From Oscillospiraceae bacterium (GTDB lineage Bacteria > Bacillota > Clostridia > Oscillospirales > Acutalibacteraceae), in assembly GCA_031269595.1 (NCBI GenBank), contig JAISYX010000002.1, positions 1 through 40,869 on the forward strand: DNA of 40,869 bases, written 5' to 3'. The notes under the pieces are model-generated. The model had not been told where the DNA came from, did no database searches, and was given only the letters and a program-made list of their open reading frames with translations. Positions 2,845 through 40,703 of the stretch are shown in pieces. The stretch's first letter is position 1; the number at the start of each line of letters is the position of its first letter. Both the position numbers and the translations under genes were made by a program.

Positions 2845-5800
2845 TTATGCGGCGTTAACAGCAGCTATTAAATCGGCCGCTGTGCCTGTGCCGTTGAAGA
2901 AGTTTGCAGACTGGCCGAAGAGGATGGCTCTACTTTTTTGGGAAAATTCATCCTGCACAGCACCTTGGAACATTGTAATGCCTGTGTTAAAAGCAAGGGC
3001 AGATTTTAAGGTATCGGTGAGTGGAGTTGGATAGTAGTCATAATCTTCTGCTGTAAGATCAGCTATGCGTTTGGCACGAGTCCAATCAAAGTTTGGAGTA
3101 TAAGCACGGGTTTTGTTTGAAACAGCACTTGCTGAAAGGGTGTAGGTGCGCCATTCGCCAAAGGAGAGCAGAGCCTCGGCAGAGGTTAATGATTGCACCA
3201 ATGCAACAACACCAGCTCTCTTTTCGGGGTCTTCATAGGCCTTGCGGGAGATTGCGTAGCCCATAGAGATACCGCCTATAGCGTCTGTGTTTTTGCGGTT
3301 AGAGCCTGCCTTTGCGGGGAAGTAGGTTATGCCAACATTTTCGTTCCAAACATTGTAGCTCCATGAACCGCCTACAAAGAAAGCAGCATTGCCGTCGATA
3401 AGGGCAAAAAATGTATCGCTGTTTGTTATGGTGTCAGCATCGGGTGAGAGCAAGCCATTGTCATAAAGGGCTTTAATGTCATCAAGTCCTGCGGCAAAGG
3501 CGGCAGCTTCTGCTGCGTCCTTGGTGTACGCACCGTGCTGTGAAGCATCCAGCTCATTGTTGAAGGAGGTGTACTCCCAGAGGTAGTGTATACCCTCGGC
3601 AGGGTCAAAAACTGTGGCAAGGGCTGTGTATCCTGCGTCTTTAACCTTTTTAAGGTCTTCAACCCACTGCTCATAGGTGGTGTTAGCATCGGGCACGCTT
3701 ACGCCTGCTGCATCAAGAACAGCCTTGTTGTAAAGCAGAGCCTCAGAATAGCCAATGCTTGGTACAAAGTAATGCTTGCCGTCGGCAGCTTTGCCGCCTA
3801 CTGCATCAATACGGTTGATGTCATGGTCAGCAATAAAGTTGGGGTAATCCTGCTGTATTTCTTCAATAGAGACAAGCTTGTCAGCGTCTATTAAGGGCTT
3901 TGCATAATCGCCCATCCAGTAGTACAGAACGTCAGATTCATCGCCTGAGAGGAATTCAGTAATAACATCCTGCCTGTAATTATCATCGCCTGTATCAGCA
4001 ACATTAACACAGTTAACGCCGGAATCCTCGGCAGCCAGAGTAGTAAGAGCTGTCATCCAGTCATCGGTTGTGAAGGTAGAACGAAGGGTGACACGGGAAA
4101 CATATTCGCCTGCATATCTTGTAACTATGCTATTGGAAACAGAGCTTGTGCCGCCAAAGATATAAAGCTTTGATTTGTCGTTTGTACGCAGGTCAAATCT
4201 GATTGTGCTGTAGAGGTAATCAGGGTGCAGCAGGATAACGGGGGCAAGATTCTTTGCAGCAAATGAGCTGCCTGCAAGTGCGTCAGGGAAGCTTGCGCCT
4301 GTTGCCACAGTAAAGGCATCGCCTGCAAACAAATCCTTGTAGGCTCTGTATATAGAGTCAGAGGTGATATAGCGGTTTGAGCCGGAAATACGGCTTGTTC
4401 CGGTAACTCCCAAAGAGGCAAGGGAGCCCTCTGTCTTTGCGTTTACAGAGCTTGTGCCGCCCACTATTGTGGAGCTCTTTATAGCATTAGTTTTTACAAA
4501 CGTTGAGGCTTCTTCCGAAAGCGCACTTTGTCCGGGGTTTGCGAAGAGTATAGGAGCACCCTTTATTGCCGCAACAGGGCTTATAGAAAGCGCGTCGGGG
4601 AAGGAGGTACCGCTTGCAAGGAAGAACTCAGTTGGTGCGCCCTTGACCTTTACCAGAGCCTTGGCGATTTCAACAGCGGTAACATAGCGGTTTCCGCCTG
4701 CCAGCCTTTCTACATTGTAAAGCTTGCTAAGCTCATCAAATGTAGCATTGTTAACGGAGCTTTCGCCGCCCAGAATGTAAACATCCTTTGCGCCAAGACG
4801 TGCTATTTCCTTTTTAACGTCTTCTTCCAGAGTGGCTGCTGTTGTTAACAGGATAGGGGCATCCTTTGATGCGGCAAATGGGCCGCCTGCCAGTGCGTCT
4901 GCAAAGTTTGAACCGCTTGCCAAAACAACTGCTGTTGCCTCGCCGTCTGCCCAGCCCTCTTTGGAGATTTCCAGGGCTGTGTCAACTCTGTTGTTGCCGC
5001 TAAGGCGTGTTTTTGTTTGGATTGACGTGTAGAGTGGGCTTTGTCCATCATTCTTAACTTTTACGCCATTCTTTTTAAGCTGCTGTATTGTGTCATAGGT
5101 GTCGGATTTTGGGTCTGTGTCAAAGTAGTTCTTGCTGATATCCAGCTCAAAACCTTTTTTTAAAAGTGTAGTAAGGGGAGATAAATCTGCAATATAAGAA
5201 TTATAAATGCCAAGAGAAGTGGGCTTAGTAAGGGTAGAAAGGGCTGCAAGGCCTTCTTGAGCAAGGTTATACAGATTAAGGGACTTAATTGCAGGTAACT
5301 GTGCAAGGATAGAGTAATTGCTTACCTGTGAATAATACAAGCTCAAATCAACAAGCTTATTGCAATACTCCAAGCCGCTTAGGTCTGATACAAAAGAAGC
5401 AGAGAGATTAGTAACCCCTGAAAGCTCACGCTCTGAAAGCTCGCCGTCCCAGTTGCTGTCATACGTCTTCAACAATGCTGCCTTTAGGTTTTCGTCAGGA
5501 ATATTAACAATTGGCGTGTTATCTATTCCTGTGATGTCTTGGTATTGATACCAAACTGTTGCGCCGTTAGCCAAAAATGTCTCTATTATCTGCATTACGG
5601 CGGGGTCGTCTAAATTAAGCCCATTGTTCTCTATATCCAAATACTCTAAATTAGTTAAGCTTGCAAGGGGGGTAATATCTGCAATTTGGTTTACCCATAA
5701 AACTAATTGATACAAATTGCTTAAGCCCGCAAGAGGTGAAACATCTGTTACTTGGTTGTTGTACAAACTCAGATAGCCAAGATTTGCAAGTGAAGCAAGG

Positions 5801-7545
5801 GCTGAAATATCTGTTATTTTATTGTTGCCCAAATACAGATAATCAAGCTTTGTCAGTGCGGAAAGTGCAGAAATATCTGTTATTTGGTTGTAGCCCAAAT
5901 CTAGGCTTTCAAGATTTGTTAGTGCAGCAAGGGCTGAAACATCTGTTATTTGGTTGCCGTACAAACTCAGGCTTTCAAGATTTGTCAATGTAGCAAGGGC
6001 TGAAATGTCTGTTATTTGGCAGTTTCCCAAACTCAGATATTTAAGATTTGTCAGCGCAGAAATAAATGACAGGTCTGTTACAGAGGTTTCATACAGGTTA
6101 AGGCTATAAAGCAATGGTAACTGCGCCATGGCAGAAAAATCACTTACAGTTGAATTGTACAAGCTCAAATAATCCAAGTTGGTGCAATACTCCAAACCGC
6201 TTAAATCTGCTACCTCTTCGGCCCATACATAATCAACCTGTGAAAGCTCATACTCTGAAAGCTTACCGTCGCCGTTTGTGTCTGCGCCATAGTCAAAAAA
6301 CGCCTGCCTTAGGTTTGCGTCAGGTATGTTGACAACAGGGGTGGTGTCGGGGATTATCTGGTATTCATAATTAACCCATGTGCCGTTAGCCTCTAGTGCC
6401 TCTATTACCTGCATTGTGTCGGGGTCGGTTAAATCAAGATTGTTACCATCTAAATACAAGTAGTCTAAACTAGTTAAGCTTGCAAGGGGTGTAATGTCTT
6501 CAAGTTGGTTGTAGCCTAAATCCAAGAAATATAAACCGCTTAAGCCAGCAAGGGGCGAAACATCTGTTATTTGGTTGCTGGATAAAGCCAAAAGCCCAAG
6601 ACCGTTCAGATTTGCAAAAGCAGAAACATCTGTTATTCCTGAATCAATAATCTGCAGCTGCCATAGGTTTGGTATGCTTTCTAAAACTGAGTAGTCGCTT
6701 AAGCTCAAACCTGATATATCCAAGGCTGAAAGATTCTCAAAAGTTACTAAGGATGATATATCTTTTACATTTGTATGTGAAATGTAAAGAGAATTAATAG
6801 GAAACCCTTGAAGAACAGATAAATCACTCAATGGGGTGAAACTAAGGTCAACAACTTCCAAATTGGCTAAGGCTGAAAGCACAGAAGAATCAGCAAAGTC
6901 TGTATTTGAAATTCTTAAGCTGCTAAGGTTTGTTAAACCTGCAATAGGAGACCAATCTGTAACAGAGCCCCCATAAATACTTAAATAGGAAAGGTTTGTA
7001 AGGCCTGAAATTGCAGAAATGTCACTTATATTGGTCTCAAATAACTGAAGAGAACTAAGGTTTGTTGCGCCTGCAAGCGGAGTCCAATCTGCAATATCAG
7101 AATATTCAATGCTAACATAAGACAAATTAGTAAGGGAGGGTATGAATGAAATGTCGGTAATATTGCTTAGTTCCACGCTGTCAAGCCCAGTTAACTGTGT
7201 GAGAATAGACCAATCGCTTACAGCTGGACGGCTCAGGGTAATCCAATGTAATTCATCGCAATACTGTAAGCCAGTTAAATCGGATACATTGTCAGCGTAT
7301 AAATTAAACACATCCGCCAGTTCGCTTTCGGTAAGCTGGCCGTCGTCATTGTAGTCTACTTGATTTAACAACGCCTGCCTTAAATTCACATCGGGAATGT
7401 TAACCACTGTATTCGGGGCTGCTTGAACGCTAAATGCCTGAACCATGCTAAAGATTAGTGCTAGGGAGATGCACAAAGAAATAATTCTCTTCATAACTTT
7501 AACCTCTTTCTTAAAATTTTGGGTTTGTGCTAACTTCTTGTTCAT
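2845..7545 (-). CDS. Wall-anchored LRR / CWB2 / substrate-binding mosaic surface protein
   Basis: 1566-residue secreted protein. After the signal peptide (MKRIISLCISLALIFSMV) come three modules starting near residues 45, 402 and 677. Each opens with VNIPD-x-NL and a calcium-loop sequence (DYNDDGQLTESEL, DTNGDGKLSEYEL, DSNWDGELSEREL; EF-hand/dockerin-like) and runs into 21-22-residue leucine-rich repeats of the LTNLxxLxLxxNxITDISAL type, as in internalins. Three CWB2 repeats follow (about 845-1150: LSGNNRVDTA, LAGGNRYVTA, ISGSNRYITS), then a family 1 substrate-binding domain (about 1150-1566) close to that of the neighbouring paralogue. LRRs usually bind protein or glycan; the joint role here is inferred, not known. 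ATG at 7545 is chosen for GGAGG 8 bases upstream over an in-frame GTG further out. It has its own promoter and terminator, so it is monocistronic. Confidence 0.9.
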   Translation of the reverse strand: MNKKLAQTQNFKKEVKVMKRIISLCISLALIFSMVQAFSVQAAPNTVVNIPDVNLRQALLNQVDYNDDGQLTESELADVFNLYADNVSDLTGLQYCDELHWITLSRPAVSDWSILTQLTGLDSVELSNITDISFIPSLTNLSYVSIEYSDIADWTPLAGATNLSSLQLFETNISDISAISGLTNLSYLSIYGGSVTDWSPIAGLTNLSSLRISNTDFADSSVLSALANLEVVDLSFTPLSDLSVLQGFPINSLYISHTNVKDISSLVTFENLSALDISGLSLSDYSVLESIPNLWQLQIIDSGITDVSAFANLNGLGLLALSSNQITDVSPLAGLSGLYFLDLGYNQLEDITPLASLTSLDYLYLDGNNLDLTDPDTMQVIEALEANGTWVNYEYQIIPDTTPVVNIPDANLRQAFFDYGADTNGDGKLSEYELSQVDYVWAEEVADLSGLEYCTNLDYLSLYNSTVSDFSAMAQLPLLYSLNLYETSVTDLSFISALTNLKYLSLGNCQITDISALATLTNLESLSLYGNQITDVSALAALTNLESLDLGYNQITDISALSALTKLDYLYLGNNKITDISALASLANLGYLSLYNNQVTDVSPLAGLSNLYQLVLWVNQIADITPLASLTNLEYLDIENNGLNLDDPAVMQIIETFLANGATVWYQYQDITGIDNTPIVNIPDENLKAALLKTYDSNWDGELSERELSGVTNLSASFVSDLSGLEYCNKLVDLSLYYSQVSNYSILAQLPAIKSLNLYNLAQEGLAALSTLTKPTSLGIYNSYIADLSPLTTLLKKGFELDISKNYFDTDPKSDTYDTIQQLKKNGVKVKNDGQSPLYTSIQTKTRLSGNNRVDTALEISKEGWADGEATAVVLASGSNFADALAGGPFAASKDAPILLTTAATLEEDVKKEIARLGAKDVYILGGESSVNNATFDELSKLYNVERLAGGNRYVTAVEIAKALVKVKGAPTEFFLASGTSFPDALSISPVAAIKGAPILFANPGQSALSEEASTFVKTNAIKSSTIVGGTSSVNAKTEGSLASLGVTGTSRISGSNRYITSDSIYRAYKDLFAGDAFTVATGASFPDALAGSSFAAKNLAPVILLHPDYLYSTIRFDLRTNDKSKLYIFGGTSSVSNSIVTRYAGEYVSRVTLRSTFTTDDWMTALTTLAAEDSGVNCVNVADTGDDNYRQDVITEFLSGDESDVLYYWMGDYAKPLIDADKLVSIEEIQQDYPNFIADHDINRIDAVGGKAADGKHYFVPSIGYSEALLYNKAVLDAAGVSVPDANTTYEQWVEDLKKVKDAGYTALATVFDPAEGIHYLWEYTSFNNELDASQHGAYTKDAAEAAAFAAGLDDIKALYDNGLLSPDADTITNSDTFFALIDGNAAFFVGGSWSYNVWNENVGITYFPAKAGSNRKNTDAIGGISMGYAISRKAYEDPEKRAGVVALVQSLTSAEALLSFGEWRTYTLSASAVSNKTRAYTPNFDWTRAKRIADLTAEDYDYYPTPLTDTLKSALAFNTGITMFQGAVQDEFSQKSRAILFGQSANFFNGTGTAADLIAAVNAA

Positions 7546-34249: not shown

Positions 34250-34269
34250 ATTTGACCAATCGGTCAAAT
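34250..34269. promoter_or_regulatory. TetR operator O2
   Basis: ATTTGACC-AATC-GGTCAAAT, 8-bp arms, centred at the expected transcription start. It shares TTGACC-N4-GGTCAA with O1, and the two centres are 33 bases apart, about three helical turns. Confidence 0.8.
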
Positions 34270-34291
34270 GGCATTGCAGGAGGTAGCCCCC

Positions 34292-34978
34292 ATGAATACT
34301 GGTCAAACAAAGGCTGACATTTTAACCGCCTTAAAGAGTGACTTGGACAGTGACGATGTATACGCACACTTTATAAAGCTTGATGAGGAAAAGAGGGAGC
34401 GCATACTTACAGCGGCTTACGATGAGTTTCTCGAAAAAGGCTATGGCGAAGCATCCACAAACGCCCTCACAAAAAAGGCAGGAATCAGCAAAGGCTTGCT
34501 GTTTCGCTATTTTGGCAGCAAGGAGGGTTTGTACAAATTTCTGATGATAGAATCCGCACGGCGCATTGCGCATAAGGCTCTATCTGCCTTGCCTTCTGAG
34601 CAGGGCGATGTGTTCGCCATCATCAAGGGGATTGTTCAGCACAAAATTGCTGTTTGCTTGACATTTCCAAAGGAAACGAATTTTTTGATTGCCGCTTGGA
34701 ACACGAATTTGCCTGACAGTTTGCGGGAGCAGCGCAAGCAAATGACTTCAATATCAAACAATTATTTTGACATTGTGTGCGATTTGCTTGATGACAGTCT
34801 GCTTAGAGTTAATTTAGAGAAAACTGTCGCCGCCGAAATTATCGCTTGGGTGTGTGAAAAATTTTCTGACAAGGTGCTTTTTGGCGGGATTGTCGGTATC
34901 AACGAGGAAAGTTGGAATCATATATCAGAGGATTTAGACAAATACATGGATGCGCTGCGGTGCGGATTATACAAATAA
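34292..34978 (+). CDS. TetR/AcrR-family repressor
   Basis: 228 residues. The helix-turn-helix domain (about 32-80) reads EKRERILTAAYDEFLEKGY, then TNALTKKAGISKGLLFRYFG, typical of TetR. The ligand-binding C-terminal half is divergent as usual. ATG at 34292 follows GGAGG by 8 bases. The gene heads an operon with an ABC exporter 15 bases downstream, and two matching palindromes (34212-34241, 34250-34269) sit on its promoter, so autorepression lifted by the exporter's substrate is the natural model. Confidence 0.93.
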   Translation: MNTGQTKADILTALKSDLDSDDVYAHFIKLDEEKRERILTAAYDEFLEKGYGEASTNALTKKAGISKGLLFRYFGSKEGLYKFLMIESARRIAHKALSALPSEQGDVFAIIKGIVQHKIAVCLTFPKETNFLIAAWNTNLPDSLREQRKQMTSISNNYFDIVCDLLDDSLLRVNLEKTVAAEIIAWVCEKFSDKVLFGGIVGINEESWNHISEDLDKYMDALRCGLYK

Positions 34979-34993
34979 AAGGAGACTAACTAT

Positions 34994-35887
34994 ATGTCAA
35001 ACACAGTCATTAAAGCCGAGGGCTTGGTTAAGACTTTCGGCAAAGTCAAGGCACTCGACGGGGTGAATCTCGCTGTAGAGCAAGGAGAGGTTTACGGCTT
35101 TATCGGGCCAAACGGTGCAGGCAAAAGCACTACGATTCGTATCCTCATCGGTGCGTTAAAAGCGGCTTCTGGCAAGGCTTCCATCTTCGGGCAGGATGCA
35201 TGGCGTGACGCTGTGGACATCCACAAACGAATCGCCTATGTACCTGGCGATATGAACCTGTGGGATAATCTGACAGGCGGTGAAATCATCGACTTGTTTA
35301 TACGTTTGCGGTGCGGGAGCGACAAGAAATACAGGGAGGAGTTGATTGAGAAATTCGACTTTGACCCGACAAAAAAGTCTGGCACATACTCAAAGGGGAA
35401 TCGGCAGAAAGTGGCTCTCGTGGCGGCTTTTGCGTCTGCTGCAGACCTGTACATTCTCGACGAGCCAACTAGTGGACTTGACCCGCTGATGGAGCTTGTT
35501 TTTCAAGAGTGTGTGGCAAAAGTGAAAAGCGAAGGCAAAACCGTTCTGCTCTCCAGCCACATTCTTTCCGAGGTTGAAAAGCTCTGCGATAGGCTTTCCA
35601 TTATCCGAAATGGTAAAATCATTGATACGGGAACGCTCCGTGAATTGCGGCATCTGTCACGGAACAACGTAACGGTGGAAACCGAAAAGCCTATCCCGCA
35701 GCTGAGCGATATGGGTGGCGTGTTTGATGTGTCAGAAACTGCGGGAGAGGTCACGTTTCACGTTGACAGCGATGCCATCGGTGCGGTAATGAGCGTTCTC
35801 GCAAATGCAGGGATCAAACATATTTCCGTCACGCCGCCGACGTTGGAGGAGCTTTTTCTGAGCCATTACGGCGTGAAGGAGGGTTGA
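34994..35887 (+). CDS. ABC-2 type exporter ATPase
   Basis: 297 residues. Walker A GPNGAGKST (38-46), signature region YSKGNRQKVALVAA (degenerate against LSGGQ, as in DrrA-like proteins), Walker B LYILDEPTSGLDP and H-loop LLSSHI. The C-terminal 80 residues form the usual accessory domain. It pairs with the membrane protein that starts 2 bases after its stop. AAGGAG lies 9 bases before ATG. Drug or antibiotic export is inferred from the family and the TetR control. Confidence 0.93.
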   Translation: MSNTVIKAEGLVKTFGKVKALDGVNLAVEQGEVYGFIGPNGAGKSTTIRILIGALKAASGKASIFGQDAWRDAVDIHKRIAYVPGDMNLWDNLTGGEIIDLFIRLRCGSDKKYREELIEKFDFDPTKKSGTYSKGNRQKVALVAAFASAADLYILDEPTSGLDPLMELVFQECVAKVKSEGKTVLLSSHILSEVEKLCDRLSIIRNGKIIDTGTLRELRHLSRNNVTVETEKPIPQLSDMGGVFDVSETAGEVTFHVDSDAIGAVMSVLANAGIKHISVTPPTLEELFLSHYGVKEG

Positions 35888-35889
35888 TA

Positions 35890-37488
35890 ATGAAACGATT
35901 CACAAACACAGGCGCATTATTTCGCTTCGCCTTGCGCCGTGACCGCATTTTCTTGCCCCTGTGGATTGTCGGTATTGTGTTTTTTACGGTGATATGCGCA
36001 CCGTTGTTCACGCAAATTGCGCAGTCTCCCGCAGACCTTGCCATGTACGCCGAAACGATGAAAAATCCTGCGATGATTGCCCTCTGTGGGCCACTGTATG
36101 CCGAGCCGTACACCTACGGCGTGATGTACACACAAATGATGGCAGTGTGGATTTTGATCCTAATTGGCGTGATGAATTTTTTCCTTGTGTCACGCCACAT
36201 GCGGCGTGACGAGGAGGATGGCAAAATTGAGGTTTTGCGTTCGCTGCCTGTCGGTCGGGGGGCGATTCTGTCTTCTACATTATCCGTGGCGGTTCTCGCT
36301 AATGTGGCGATTGGCTTGCTCTGTGCCATCGGTCTTGCCGCCTACGGAATCGAGAGCATGACCATAGGCGGTTGCCTATTGCTCGGCACGATTTTCTGTG
36401 TGGTTGGCTTACTGTTTTCAGCGATCGCCATGCTTGTCTCGCAGCTTTGTTCCACCTCACGCAGCGTCATTGGCGGCAGTTTTCTCACCCTCGGCGTACT
36501 TTATATGCTTGCCGCAATGGGCAATGTGCAGGGCGGTGTGTTGTCGTATATCTCGCCGCTTGCTATCGTGTTCAAAACCTTGCCGTTTGCGGGCAATCAA
36601 ATTTATCCTATATTCATTATACTTGCGGAAACGTTCGTTGTTGCGGTGATTGCCATTTGCTTAAACGCCGTACGTGACCTCGGTGCAGGATTGCTTCCGC
36701 AGAGAAAAGGATGCGCCCACGCAAATCAAATGCTGTCCTCCCCCTTTGGGCTGGCTTGGCGGCTGACGAAAAACACCTCAATTGCATGGGGCATCATCAT
36801 GTTCGTGGTGGGACTGATGTATGGCTCGGTTTTTGGAGATTTTGAATCCTTTATCGGCGGCAGTGAGATGATTCAAAAAATCATCGCAGCGGGTGCGGGC
36901 GGAGATATGATGCTCAGTTTCATGACCTACATTACGCTGATTATGGCGAACGTTGCGGCAATTCCCGTGATTAACTGCGTGTTGAAGCTGCGCTCTGAGG
37001 AAAAGAAAAACCGCTTGGAGCCGGTTTATGCGAAAGCCGTGTCAAAAACGGGACAATTCATTCCGTATATCGCAATCGGTGTATGTCTTTCAGTTCTCCT
37101 ACAACTTTCACTGTCTTTTGGCCTATGGCTTGCGATACGCTCCGTTATGAGTGAACCGTTTGCGCTTGCGGACATTATAATTGCCGGCATCATAAAACTG
37201 CCGGGAATATGGCTGCTTGCGGGGCTTGCCGTTCTGCTTACGGGACTGCTGCCCAAGCGGACCTCGCTTGTATGGGTATATTTCGGACTGTCATTTTTTG
37301 CGGTATACATCGGGCGGCTTGCCGATTTGCCGGATGCATTTGTAAAAATCACTGCTTTCGGCGCATTGCCGGACTGCCCGATTGATAGATTTGATGCTGT
37401 GCCGTTTGTGATTATGACAGGCGTTGCGGTGATACTGACGGTTGCGGGCATGGTGCTGTATTCGCAGCGTGAGCTGCGGTATAGCTAA
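35890..37488 (+). CDS. ABC-2 exporter permease (polyketide-antibiotic exporter type)
   Basis: 532 residues with about 12 membrane helices in two halves, starting MKRFTNTGALFRFALRRDR. The order and the motif RHMRRDEEDGKIEVLRSLPVGR fit COG3559-type membrane subunits (putative exporters of polyketide antibiotics), which are twice the usual ABC-2 length. ATG at 35890 follows GGAGG by 7 bases; that site lies in the last codons of the ATPase gene. The substrate is unknown. Confidence 0.9.
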   Translation: MKRFTNTGALFRFALRRDRIFLPLWIVGIVFFTVICAPLFTQIAQSPADLAMYAETMKNPAMIALCGPLYAEPYTYGVMYTQMMAVWILILIGVMNFFLVSRHMRRDEEDGKIEVLRSLPVGRGAILSSTLSVAVLANVAIGLLCAIGLAAYGIESMTIGGCLLLGTIFCVVGLLFSAIAMLVSQLCSTSRSVIGGSFLTLGVLYMLAAMGNVQGGVLSYISPLAIVFKTLPFAGNQIYPIFIILAETFVVAVIAICLNAVRDLGAGLLPQRKGCAHANQMLSSPFGLAWRLTKNTSIAWGIIMFVVGLMYGSVFGDFESFIGGSEMIQKIIAAGAGGDMMLSFMTYITLIMANVAAIPVINCVLKLRSEEKKNRLEPVYAKAVSKTGQFIPYIAIGVCLSVLLQLSLSFGLWLAIRSVMSEPFALADIIIAGIIKLPGIWLLAGLAVLLTGLLPKRTSLVWVYFGLSFFAVYIGRLADLPDAFVKITAFGALPDCPIDRFDAVPFVIMTGVAVILTVAGMVLYSQRELRYS

Positions 37489-37501
37489 TGATTTGTAAAA
37501 C

Positions 37502-37546
37502 AGTTTATCTCCATTTTATAAATAGTTTAACTTTGCGTGATATGCT
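37502..37546 (+). promoter_or_regulatory. Response-regulator-dependent promoter of the two-component operon
   Basis: Heptamers AGTTTAT, ATTTTAT and AGTTTAA start at 37502, 37513 and 37524, exactly 11 bases apart, with a weaker one at 37491. A -10 (TATGCT, 37541-37546) lies 10 bases after the last, and no -35 is present. OmpR/PhoB-type regulators bind such phased direct repeats in place of a -35. Confidence 0.75.
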
Positions 37547-37572
37547 GATATGGTAAGGGAGGCGTTATTGCC

Positions 37573-38730
37573 ATGACAATAAAAAAACGGCTTTTCATAT
37601 CCAATATTCTTATGATAGTCATACCTATCATCCTTGCGCTGTTCACCATGCTCATTGCCTATGGGGTAGTAAACGTTATGTTTCACGGTTCGCTGTACGA
37701 TATTATTCAGCAGGCGGAGGAATTAAACAAGGAGCAATTCGGCGAATCTATCGAATCCATGCGGGCACAGATTGCCATGCTTGCCTTGCTCTTTATGGCG
37801 GGCGTGGTAGCAATCACCTATTTTACCAACCGATTTTTAACCAAGTTTGTGTTCCGCAAAATCGAGCAGCCGCTGGAGATGCTGTCACAGGGCGTCCGCC
37901 AAATCAAAAACGGCAACCTTGACCACCGCATTGAATATGATGGGCCGGATGAATTTCAGCCGGTGTGCGAGGATTTTAACGACATGGCAGTTCGGCTTAA
38001 AAGCTCTGTGGAGGAAACGCTCAAAAATGAGCAGAGCCGAAAAGAACTGATTGCAGGGATTTCCCACGATTTGCGCTCCCCGCTGACATCTATCAAAGCA
38101 TATGTGGAGGGGCTGATTGACGGCGTTGCCGTTACACCTGAGGCGCAGCGGGAGTATTTGCAGACAATCAAAACCAAAACGGACGACATCAGCAAGATGG
38201 TTTCGCAGCTTTTTCTCTTTTCAAAGATGGACACAGGGAATTACCCTGTAAATCTTGAAACACTGGACATTGGCAGGGAAATCACCGATTTTGTAAATGT
38301 CACTCAAGAGGACTATGCCGCAAAAGGGCTTACAGTACGGCTGAATGAACTGCCGGAAGCGGTCACGGTAACTGCCGATCCGGTGCAGATTCGCAGCGTG
38401 TTCACCAATATACTGGACAACAGTGCAAAGTACAGCGGCAAAGCCTCCGCCGAGGCTGTGATTCATTGCGAAGTCAATGCCGACACGGTGCAAATTATCT
38501 TTGACGACAATGGGGCGGGGGTTCAGCCGGATGCACTGCCAAAGCTCTTTGACGTATTTTATCGCAGCGATGTCTCCAGAAATAACCCCCAACAAGGCAG
38601 CGGCTTAGGGCTTGCCATTGCCGTCAAAATGCTTGAGCGCATGAATGGCAGCATTTATGCCAAAAACCGCACCGAGGGCGGGCTGCGTATTGTTATAAAG
38701 ATTCCTGTGCGAGAGGGAGCGACGAAATGA
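37573..38730 (+). CDS. Sensor histidine kinase
   Basis: 385 residues. Two membrane helices (about 9-34 and 62-84) flank a short extracellular loop of about 28 residues. A HAMP segment (about 85-150) is followed by HisKA with the phospho-acceptor H165 in ISHDLRSPLTSIKAYVEGL and a HATPase domain (about 270-382) with ILDNSAKYSG (N box), DDNGAGV, VFYRSD and GSGLGLAIA. The short loop suggests sensing in or at the membrane, as in antimicrobial-peptide sensors. GGGAGG lies 10 bases before the ATG. Its stop overlaps the response-regulator start by 4 bases. Confidence 0.93.
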   Translation: MTIKKRLFISNILMIVIPIILALFTMLIAYGVVNVMFHGSLYDIIQQAEELNKEQFGESIESMRAQIAMLALLFMAGVVAITYFTNRFLTKFVFRKIEQPLEMLSQGVRQIKNGNLDHRIEYDGPDEFQPVCEDFNDMAVRLKSSVEETLKNEQSRKELIAGISHDLRSPLTSIKAYVEGLIDGVAVTPEAQREYLQTIKTKTDDISKMVSQLFLFSKMDTGNYPVNLETLDIGREITDFVNVTQEDYAAKGLTVRLNELPEAVTVTADPVQIRSVFTNILDNSAKYSGKASAEAVIHCEVNADTVQIIFDDNGAGVQPDALPKLFDVFYRSDVSRNNPQQGSGLGLAIAVKMLERMNGSIYAKNRTEGGLRIVIKIPVREGATK

Positions 38731-39416
38731 AAAAGGTTTTAATTGTAGAGGATGACCCGCAAATTGCCTTGATTGAGCGGGATTATCTGGCCGTCAACGA
38801 TTTTGAGGCAGAAATTGCAGGCACGGGCGATAAAGGGATTCAAATGGCCTTAAACGGCCAGTATGACCTTGTGCTTCTTGATTTAATGATGCCTGGGACA
38901 GACGGCTTTGCAGTTTGCCGAAAGCTCCGAGAAACACTGGATATTCCTATCCTCATGGTAACGGCCAAAGGGGAGGATATTGATATGATAAAGGGCTTAA
39001 GCCTCGGCGCAGACGACTATATCACAAAGCCATTTTCGCCCAATGTCCTAATTGCCCACGTCAAGGCCAATTTAGCGCAGTATGAACGCTTGAAGCAATC
39101 GGGGCAGCGCATCACCGCCGAGATGCAGGCAGGCAATATCCTCATACAAACAGGTGCTCGCAGGGTTTTTGTGCGGGAAAAGGAAGTGGATGTTAAGAAC
39201 AAAGAATATGAGCTTTTGCTCTTCCTTGTCACCAACATGGACATTGTGTTCAGCAAGGAAACGCTGTATGAGCGGATATGGGGCTTTGATGCCATGGGCG
39301 ATAACGCCACCGTTGCGGTTCACATTGGCCGCCTCCGAGAAAAAATTGAGGATGCCCCTGCAAACCCAAAGTATATTCAAACAGTGTGGGGTGCGGGGTA
39401 TAGGTTTAAGGTATAA
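38727..39416 (+). CDS. OmpR/PhoB-family response regulator
   Basis: 229 residues. Receiver domain (1-115) with acidic E8-D9-D10, phospho-acceptor D52 in LLDLMMPG, T79 and K101 (YITKPF). Winged-helix DNA-binding domain (about 130-229) ends VAVHIGRLREKIED, then YIQTVWGAGYRFKV, typical of OmpR. ATGA overlap with the kinase gene implies a fixed ratio of the pair. Its likely targets are the 11-bp phased repeats at 37502-37530 and 39461-39511. A terminator follows at once (39433-39460). Confidence 0.95.
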   Translation: MKKVLIVEDDPQIALIERDYLAVNDFEAEIAGTGDKGIQMALNGQYDLVLLDLMMPGTDGFAVCRKLRETLDIPILMVTAKGEDIDMIKGLSLGADDYITKPFSPNVLIAHVKANLAQYERLKQSGQRITAEMQAGNILIQTGARRVFVREKEVDVKNKEYELLLFLVTNMDIVFSKETLYERIWGFDAMGDNATVAVHIGRLREKIEDAPANPKYIQTVWGAGYRFKV

Positions 39417-39432
39417 AATTAGATTTTAAGCG

Positions 39433-39460
39433 GCTTCACCTGTGCAGGTGGAGCTTTTTT
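39433..39460 (+). terminator. Intrinsic terminator of the two-component operon
   Basis: 9-bp stem 39433-39441 with 39446-39454 (one T-G pair), 4-base loop, then TTTTTT. It starts 17 bases after the response-regulator stop and ends right where the next operator array begins. Confidence 0.85.
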
Positions 39461-39527
39461 AGTTTAAGAAAAGTTTAAAAACAGTTTAACTGCATTTTAA
39501 GATGAGTTTAGGAAGATGGGGTATTAT
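39461..39527 (+). promoter_or_regulatory. Five 11-bp-phased AGTTTAA boxes and -10, resistance-type operon
   Basis: AGTTTAA, AGTTTAA, AGTTTAA, ATTTTAA and AGTTTAG start at 39461, 39472, 39483, 39494 and 39505. A -10 (TATTAT, 39522-39527) follows the last by 10 bases, the same spacing as at 37524-37546. This is a second promoter for the same response regulator. Confidence 0.8.
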
Positions 39528-39582: not shown

Positions 39583-39846
39583 ATGGAGTACATTCTTCAA
39601 ACAAAAGCGACATCCAAAGATTTCTCAGGGAAGATGGCCATTGATTATGTGTCAATCAAGGTTGGCAAGGGCGATATTTGCGGCTTTATAGGAGAAAATG
39701 ACGCAGGCAAAACAACCCTGATGCGCATGGTGTGCGGGCTGGCAAGATGTCAAATAAGACACTGGCAAAGACACCGCCGCAAGGGAGTTCATCCCGCCGC
39801 TTGCGGCGGAAATACACCGAAAAGGAGCAGATTTGATGATAGATGA
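39583..39846 (+). pseudogene. Truncated BcrA-like ABC ATPase
   Basis: The first 54 codons (MEYILQTKATSKDFSGKMAI to MRMVCGLA) match the start of bacitracin/lantibiotic-type ABC ATPases, including Walker A, here GENDAGKT with Asp for the usual Gly. After 39744 the homology stops; no signature, Walker B or H-loop follows, and the frame runs into basic sequence up to 39846. Another frame there reads KDTAAREFIPPLAAEIHRKG, probably the end of a different lost gene. An internal deletion has joined the two. The permease partner is absent. Confidence 0.75.
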
Positions 39847-40310: not shown

Positions 40311-40703
40311 ATGTCTAAAAAAATTAATATTGCCGCAGGGTTCTCACTTGTGGTTTTTGCTTTAACAGCAATTCTGACGGTTTCAGGGTATTTGGACACG
40401 CTGAACAACTCCCTCTCAGAGGCATCACATTCGCTGGAAAATCCTGCGCTAACCATTATTTTAAAAATCATCACGAGCATCAGCGAGTGGTTTGTATATG
40501 TGCCAATTGCGCTCTTGCTTTTTGCTATCCCCAAGCTACGGTGGAGGGTGGGCTTCCCTGTGACCGTTACACTTATGGCGTCGGGTATGCTCAACTGGAC
40601 TTTGAAGCAGCTATTCGCCATTCCAAGACCCGATACACACCGTTTGATTGCAGAATCTGGTCTTAGCTTCCCTAGAGCGTGTCTACACGACTTTACAAGT
40701 TAG
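40311..40703 (+). pseudogene. PAP2 phosphatase gene interrupted by an insertion sequence
   Basis: Codons 1-121 encode the first half of a PAP2-type membrane phosphatase: helices near 8-27, 50-75 and 80-100, then KQLFAIPRPDTHRL (the K-x6-R-P motif) and GLSFP. The next expected motif SGH is missing because the element at about 40676 interrupts it; nine IS-derived codons (RACLHDFTS) end the frame. Family members dephosphorylate undecaprenyl pyrophosphate and can give bacitracin resistance, or act on other lipid phosphates. GGAGG lies 6 bases before the ATG. The distal half must lie beyond the window if it survives. Confidence 0.85.

Follow-up and report, generated by a model that had tools for sequence, protein, structure and literature searches.

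Two promoters flanking a sensor kinase and response regulator gene pair, here called P1 and P2, carry arrays of A[GT]TTTA[AT] boxes in 11-bp steps, and with a probability that we put at roughly 0.88 these arrays are the operators of the regulator encoded between them. The case is built on the positions of the boxes, their non-randomness, their conservation at orthologous loci, the phase in which the -10 element stands to them, the absence of a -35 element and a terminator in front of P2. On the best reading, the pair would be a two-component system under positive autoregulation that activates in a class-II-like manner. The novelty lies in the pairing of this motif with this regulator and in targets among which undecaprenyl-phosphate genes (PAP2, DedA-like, PF04018) are frequent, with dltX-dltA in addition.

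Box arrays around the kinase-regulator pair

The window, by which we mean the whole stretch of 40,869 bases that was analysed, has the following features at and between the two promoters:

37502..37530, + strand: P1 operator, three boxes, AGTTTAT (37502), ATTTTAT (37513) and AGTTTAA (37524), in exact 11-bp steps
37541..37546, + strand: -10 element of P1, TATGCT, 17 nt from the start of the last box, without a -35
37573..38730, + strand: sensor histidine kinase, by its matches to HAMP, HisKA and HATPase_c domains
38727..39416, + strand: OmpR/PhoB-type response regulator, by its domain matches, the proposed ligand of the boxes
39432..39455, + strand: intrinsic terminator, hairpin and T-run, between the regulator gene and P2
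39461..39511, + strand: P2 operator, five boxes (39461, 39472, 39483, 39494 and 39505) in 11-bp steps
39522..39527, + strand: -10 element of P2, TATTAT, 17 nt from the start of the last box

Read off the sequence, the layout of P1 is AGTTTATCTCC ATTTTATAAAT AGTTTAACTTT GCGTGA TATGCT and that of P2 is AGTTTAAGAAA AGTTTAAAAAC AGTTTAACTGC ATTTTAAGATG AGTTTAGGAAG ATGGGG TATTAT. The eight box positions, the 11-base spacing and the 17-base distance from box to -10 given for both promoters in the preliminary description are all present, and a promoter scan agreed with it in detecting no sigma-70-type -35/-10 pair on P1 or P2. Taken alone, the scores of the -10 elements are ambiguous: TATGGT, 8 bases downstream of TATGCT, scores equally at P1, and TATAGT scores slightly above TATTAT at P2. 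TATGCT and TATTAT were chosen because of the comparative phase lock described below.

The protein encoded between the promoters carries both a Response_reg and a Trans_reg_C domain (PF00072, E 6.9e-27; PF00486, E 4.8e-26), which places it in the OmpR/PhoB family, as had been supposed, and its sequence relatives in the PDB include RegX3, MtrA, KdpE and the PhoB receiver. P2 is a promoter in its own right, because the terminator at 39432-39455 separates it from the regulator gene. An ABC permease gene immediately precedes P1; the region directly upstream (34268-37488) contains a TetR regulator, a DrrA-like ABC ATPase and a large permease. The stretch scanned before P1 has no terminator-like site on the + strand, and read-through from the upstream genes into the kinase gene is consequently possible. 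Elsewhere in the window, at 5729-6080, there is a tandem repeat of 66-bp units that appears on reading to be leucine-rich-repeat-like.

Runs of three or more A[GT]TTTA boxes with a period of 11 occur just twice on both strands of the window, one of three boxes at 37502 and one of five at 39461. The concern that random models might make such arrays common is not borne out, as the longest run in Markov simulations of the window (200 each of orders 1, 3 and 5) was two. The score of the P1 array was reached by none of 500 shuffles, and 11 was the best of the periods from 7 to 16. In the genome to which the window belongs (2.57 Mb), AGTTTA repeated three times with a period of 11 and up to two mismatches gave seven forward matches, the top four of them being the P1 and P2 arrays; there were no reverse matches, and the reversed pattern gave none either. 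When three exact boxes followed at 17 bases by a -10 (TANNNT) were sought among 98 genomes, two matches were obtained, namely P1 and P2.

Conservation of the arrays and phase of the -10 element

Relatives of the regulator were gathered across genomes, and two regions of each locus, one ahead of the kinase gene (P1) and one behind the regulator gene (P2), were tested for period-11 arrays. The boxes of the window served as the scoring model, and each region was compared with 500 dinucleotide shuffles of itself and with periods 7 to 16, p<=0.05 being taken as significant. The sample, with the window counted, was made up of 52 loci with a regulator identity of at least 46%, which gave 102 regions; relatives of lower identity were left out and two loci had no callable P1.

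At a regulator identity of at least 61% (15 loci, the window included), a significant array was present at P1 in 10 of 15 loci and at P2 in 9 of 15. Below 58%, 11 of 70 regions reached significance, most clearly the two promoters of L044, an Enterococcus locus. Period-11 arrays at both promoters (p 0.014 or less) were found in L038, L039, L147, L148, L043, L149, L154 and L044, with another period outscoring 11 in L154. L150 and L153 have a significant array at P1 only, and each has an in-phase array one gene further down. The recognition helix is closely similar among the array-bearing orthologues.

Some relatives count against the operator reading. Three Paenibacillus orthologues (L040, L041 and L042, 65-66% identity) have no P1 array, despite a near-identical recognition helix, and at most one marginal P2 array (L041); L151 and L155 (61-62% identity) have no array at P1 or P2. 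Plasmid relatives from E. raffinosus, E. gilvus and A. rectalis gave no A[GT]TTTA array when the promoters of two Enterococcus loci were read. Taken as a whole, the sequence comparison supports the view that the arrays track the orthologous kinase-regulator pair across genera and families and fade as the regulator diverges. An array-like site also stands before a divergent-PAP2 (DUF212) gene elsewhere in the genome of one of the three Paenibacillus orthologues (L243), a loose and unsystematic lead.

The relation of the -10 element to the arrays was analysed by placing each array by box score alone and then seeking the best -10 at 40-77 nt from the array start, first on 24 hand-picked promoters and then on the full set of 32 significant and 70 non-significant regions. 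The best -10 lay in the 17-nt phase (6 modulo 11) in 20 of the 32 significant regions, where about 2.5 are expected, against 4 of the 70 non-significant ones; promoters of related species are not independent, and we attach no formal probability to these counts. The mean -10 score was 5.16 in phase and 0.63 or less in every other phase. Six of the 32 significant regions lack a good -10 in phase, and at P1 of L148 the -10 is one base off phase, at 18 nt. When regions are aligned on the -10, the boxes starting 39 and 50 nt upstream are the most conserved, followed by those at 17 and 28.

At L188, a gene for another OmpR-type regulator has AGTTTA-type boxes in front of it (1501-1545), the -10 again lying in the 17-nt phase, in a genome that has no close orthologue of the regulator of the window. 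The 17-nt rule may, on this example, be general in the clade.

Genes behind the arrays

Three features follow P2 before the contig ends:

39583..39744, + strand: broken ABC ATPase gene, of which 54 N-terminal residues are left; they share 72% identity with the intact ATPase that follows the orthologous P2 in L038
39833..40297, + strand: PF06695 membrane protein (Sm_multidrug_ex), by profile match
40311..40679, + strand: 5' part of a PAP2-type phosphatase gene, into which a repeated IS-like sequence breaks ahead of the FPSGH motif

The preliminary description had the regulator activate the operon after its own. The terminator upholds P2 as a separate promoter, but the first gene behind it is a broken ATPase. 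At 39583-39846 the remnant is joined out of frame to unrelated sequence, so that the five-box promoter now heads a decayed first gene, and with 54 N-terminal residues left an intact LanFEG-type (lantibiotic-protection) ABC operon under P2 is rejected for this genome; L038 retains an intact ATPase and permease behind the orthologous P2. The end of the contig (40675-40869) falls within the IS-like sequence that interrupts the PAP2-type gene just before its catalytic motif; two further copies lie on contigs C142 and C120. A search of this genome with the PF01569 profile found no PAP2 gene. The PF06695 family is reported to be a distant homologue of DedA/VTT proteins (PMC7818093), and to the PF06695 protein a likely role could be assigned through its common promoter and its pairing with the PAP2 gene. 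A DedA-like gene followed by an intact PAP2 gene, the same pairing, occurs in another genome (L263), where the families are named by reading and not by profile search; no array is visible upstream of this pair.

The two promoters had been presented as the targets of the regulator, a list that proves incomplete, as at least one more array is present in the same genome. On contig C66 a GTTTAA-based scan found a four-box array (0 of 2000 shuffles) whose last box begins exactly 17 nt before TATACT; it is followed by a short, leader-like frame and then by genes for an ABC ATPase and an ABC-2 permease (exporter). This was the only lead followed up in this genome with a good in-phase -10. The C36 site, lacking a good -10, and the C117 site, a perfect GTTTAA triple that lies right behind a reading frame close to the end of a contig, are doubtful. 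A loosened pattern (DKTTWA, one mismatch) was run genome-wide on 18 genomes against a reversed control and was used for leads only. It gave 13 matches against 3 in the control in this genome; in most of the 18 the matches were at about the level of the reversed control, for which reason it was not used to predict targets.

The genes of the P2-type targets at the other loci are as follows:

L038: ABC ATPase and permease
L039: ABC-FtsX protein
L147: zinc-ribbon membrane protein, then ABC genes
L148: PF04018, 'undecaprenyl phosphate translocase-like'
L149: PAP2
L153: PAP2, one gene further on
L150: VTT/DedA, one gene further on, in a split frame and over the cut-off
L154: Zn-phospholipase C-like, then MGDG-synthase-like
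L044: DltX and an AMP-binding enzyme consistent with DltA
L043: secreted-looking protein without annotation (family profiles were not run on this locus)

The envelope genes behind the arrays of L149 (5603-6091, PAP2) and L150 (DedA) appear to be split into two frames, as if P2 cargo often decayed, or as if these were assembly errors.

With the window counted, 5 of 11 P2-type targets have PAP2, VTT/DedA, PF04018 or PF06695 genes. As background, the PAP2, DedA-related, PF04018 and PF06695 families gave 23, 26, 12 and 2 match rows in the 11 genomes of these targets (about 35 Mb), where some rows are pieces of a single gene; the four families would make up about 0.2% of genes, assuming one gene per kb. 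The enrichment of C55-P-linked families behind P2-type arrays looks real on these sequence counts, and should be taken as a lead since the targets were picked by inspection. DedA and DUF368 proteins are reported to be C55-P flippases (PMC12893004). One may speculate, at somewhat less than even odds, that the regulator group (Clostridia, Paenibacillaceae, Enterococcus) is a dedicated stress switch for the lipid carrier (undecaprenyl-phosphate) or for envelope damage, which would have kept its autoregulatory operator while the P2 cassette was swapped for functionally equivalent parts: PAP2, a DedA-like or PF04018 translocase, PF06695 with PAP2, dltX-dltA, glycolipid synthesis or ABC exporters.

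The targets seem to point to control of the cell-wall lipid carrier, and regulators of the flippases (DedA, DUF368/PF04018) are little described in the portion of the literature surveyed. For this VanR-like two-component family, which is uncharacterised, the analysis yields a predicted operator code with a promoter rule, A[GT]TTTA[AT]-N4 in n boxes with 17 nt to the -10, by which its targets could be predicted from sequence.

Mode of action and relation to known systems

In the mechanism that we propose, an envelope signal would lead the kinase to phosphorylate the regulator, molecules of which would bind head-to-tail on one face of the DNA, one per 11-bp unit of seven recognised and four loose bases. 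The promoter-proximal subunits would occupy the place of the -35 and hold RNA polymerase on the -10, 17 nt past the start of the last box. P1 would thereby provide positive autoregulation of kinase and regulator, and P2, insulated by the terminator, would drive the envelope genes behind it. Binding, activation, dependence on phosphorylation and the nature of the signal are the steps that we infer; both marks of class II (-35-replacing) activation are seen, namely an operator that keeps a constant helical phase to the -10 and the lack of a -35. Motif, period and -10 phase are kept at orthologous pairs of promoters, which upholds the earlier proposal of one regulator for both, its activation of them being our inference.

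The five boxes of P2 against the three of P1 had been taken to mean a different threshold. P2 has more boxes than P1 in 4 of 10 pairs of promoters and as many in 6, and the summed array score is higher at P2 in 9 of 10, or in 9 of 12 when L148 (against) and L046 (a tie) are added. A different threshold is only suggested.

The boxes could be operators at which the bound regulator mainly represses and from which it is released on phosphorylation, in the way that C. difficile RR_1586 is said to repress its own expression on similar 11-bp repeats until phosphorylated (PMC6222199). We regard this as unlikely: both promoters lack a -35, so that a protein is probably needed to recruit polymerase, and the fixed in-phase distance to the -10 resembles the rule of CiaR-activated promoters, whereas a repressor need not hold one spacing. 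That another OmpR-family regulator of the cell binds the boxes is also quite improbable, as the arrays follow the orthologous kinase-regulator locus across families and weaken with its divergence, although the motif is generic, the in-phase array at L188 precedes a different OmpR-type gene and this genome encodes two further close regulators (E<=1e-40). Phased T-tracts, recurring as TTT each 11 bp, near the helical phase, upstream of the -10, might bend the DNA and stimulate the promoters without a regulator; this is very unlikely given tracts of just 3-4 T, conserved flanking positions (A/T and G/T before, A after) and the dependence of the arrays on one particular family of regulators. That the arrays arose by chance in intergenic DNA rich in A+T is hardly credible: looser forms of the pattern do abound in A+T-rich genomes, G481 among them, but the simulations, the shuffles, the reversed-pattern controls and the conservation reject chance.

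Operators of the adjacent regulator thus stay the preferred reading: the arrays are a real, conserved operator system of a known type and very probably a genuine switch for the regulator's own genes and nearby envelope genes. A literature search, in which subscription papers were mostly outside coverage, returned no paper combining AGTTTA, 'response regulator' and 'direct repeat', and the system was not found in print.

Among known systems, VanR/VanS is the closest by profile. In NCBIfam the regulator matches vanR_ACDEGLN best (E 5e-63) and the kinase matches HK_VanS_ACDEFG; however, 212.7 bits is below the exception-level cut-off of 350, by which the regulator is rejected as a VanR (vancomycin resistance regulator), and there are no van genes among the annotated neighbours of the pair. 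C. difficile RR_1586 is likewise a clostridial OmpR-family regulator with 11-bp direct repeats (DRTTAAGNWWW) and putative autoregulation, but differs in its sporulation and germination targets and in the repression reported for it, and the parts of its published account that we could consult describe no long arrays (PMC6222199). Streptococcal CiaR recognises a similar T/A-rich 11-bp repeat (NTTAAG-N5-TTTAAG, also given as TTTAAG-N5-TTTAAG) with ten bases to the -10, a distance that agrees with ours within one base depending on register (PMC3091779). The recognition helix is VVEVYVSKVRKKL in CiaR and ATVAVHIGRLREKIE here, and the CiaR site as published has two boxes (PMC3091779), in contrast to the up to five found here. 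The PHO box likewise consists of direct repeats in 11-nt units, seven bases of each being conserved and four loose (PMC4415409); the units are bound head-to-tail over the -35 region, where a PhoB dimer has been modelled together with sigma (PMC3348028), and some PhoB promoters are reported to be multi-box (PMC4415409, PMC3348028); the heptamer is A[GT]TTTA[AT] here and CTGTCAT there, the regulator belongs to another subfamily and we saw no link to phosphate. The geometry of the predicted operators is that of the published PhoB and CiaR classes.
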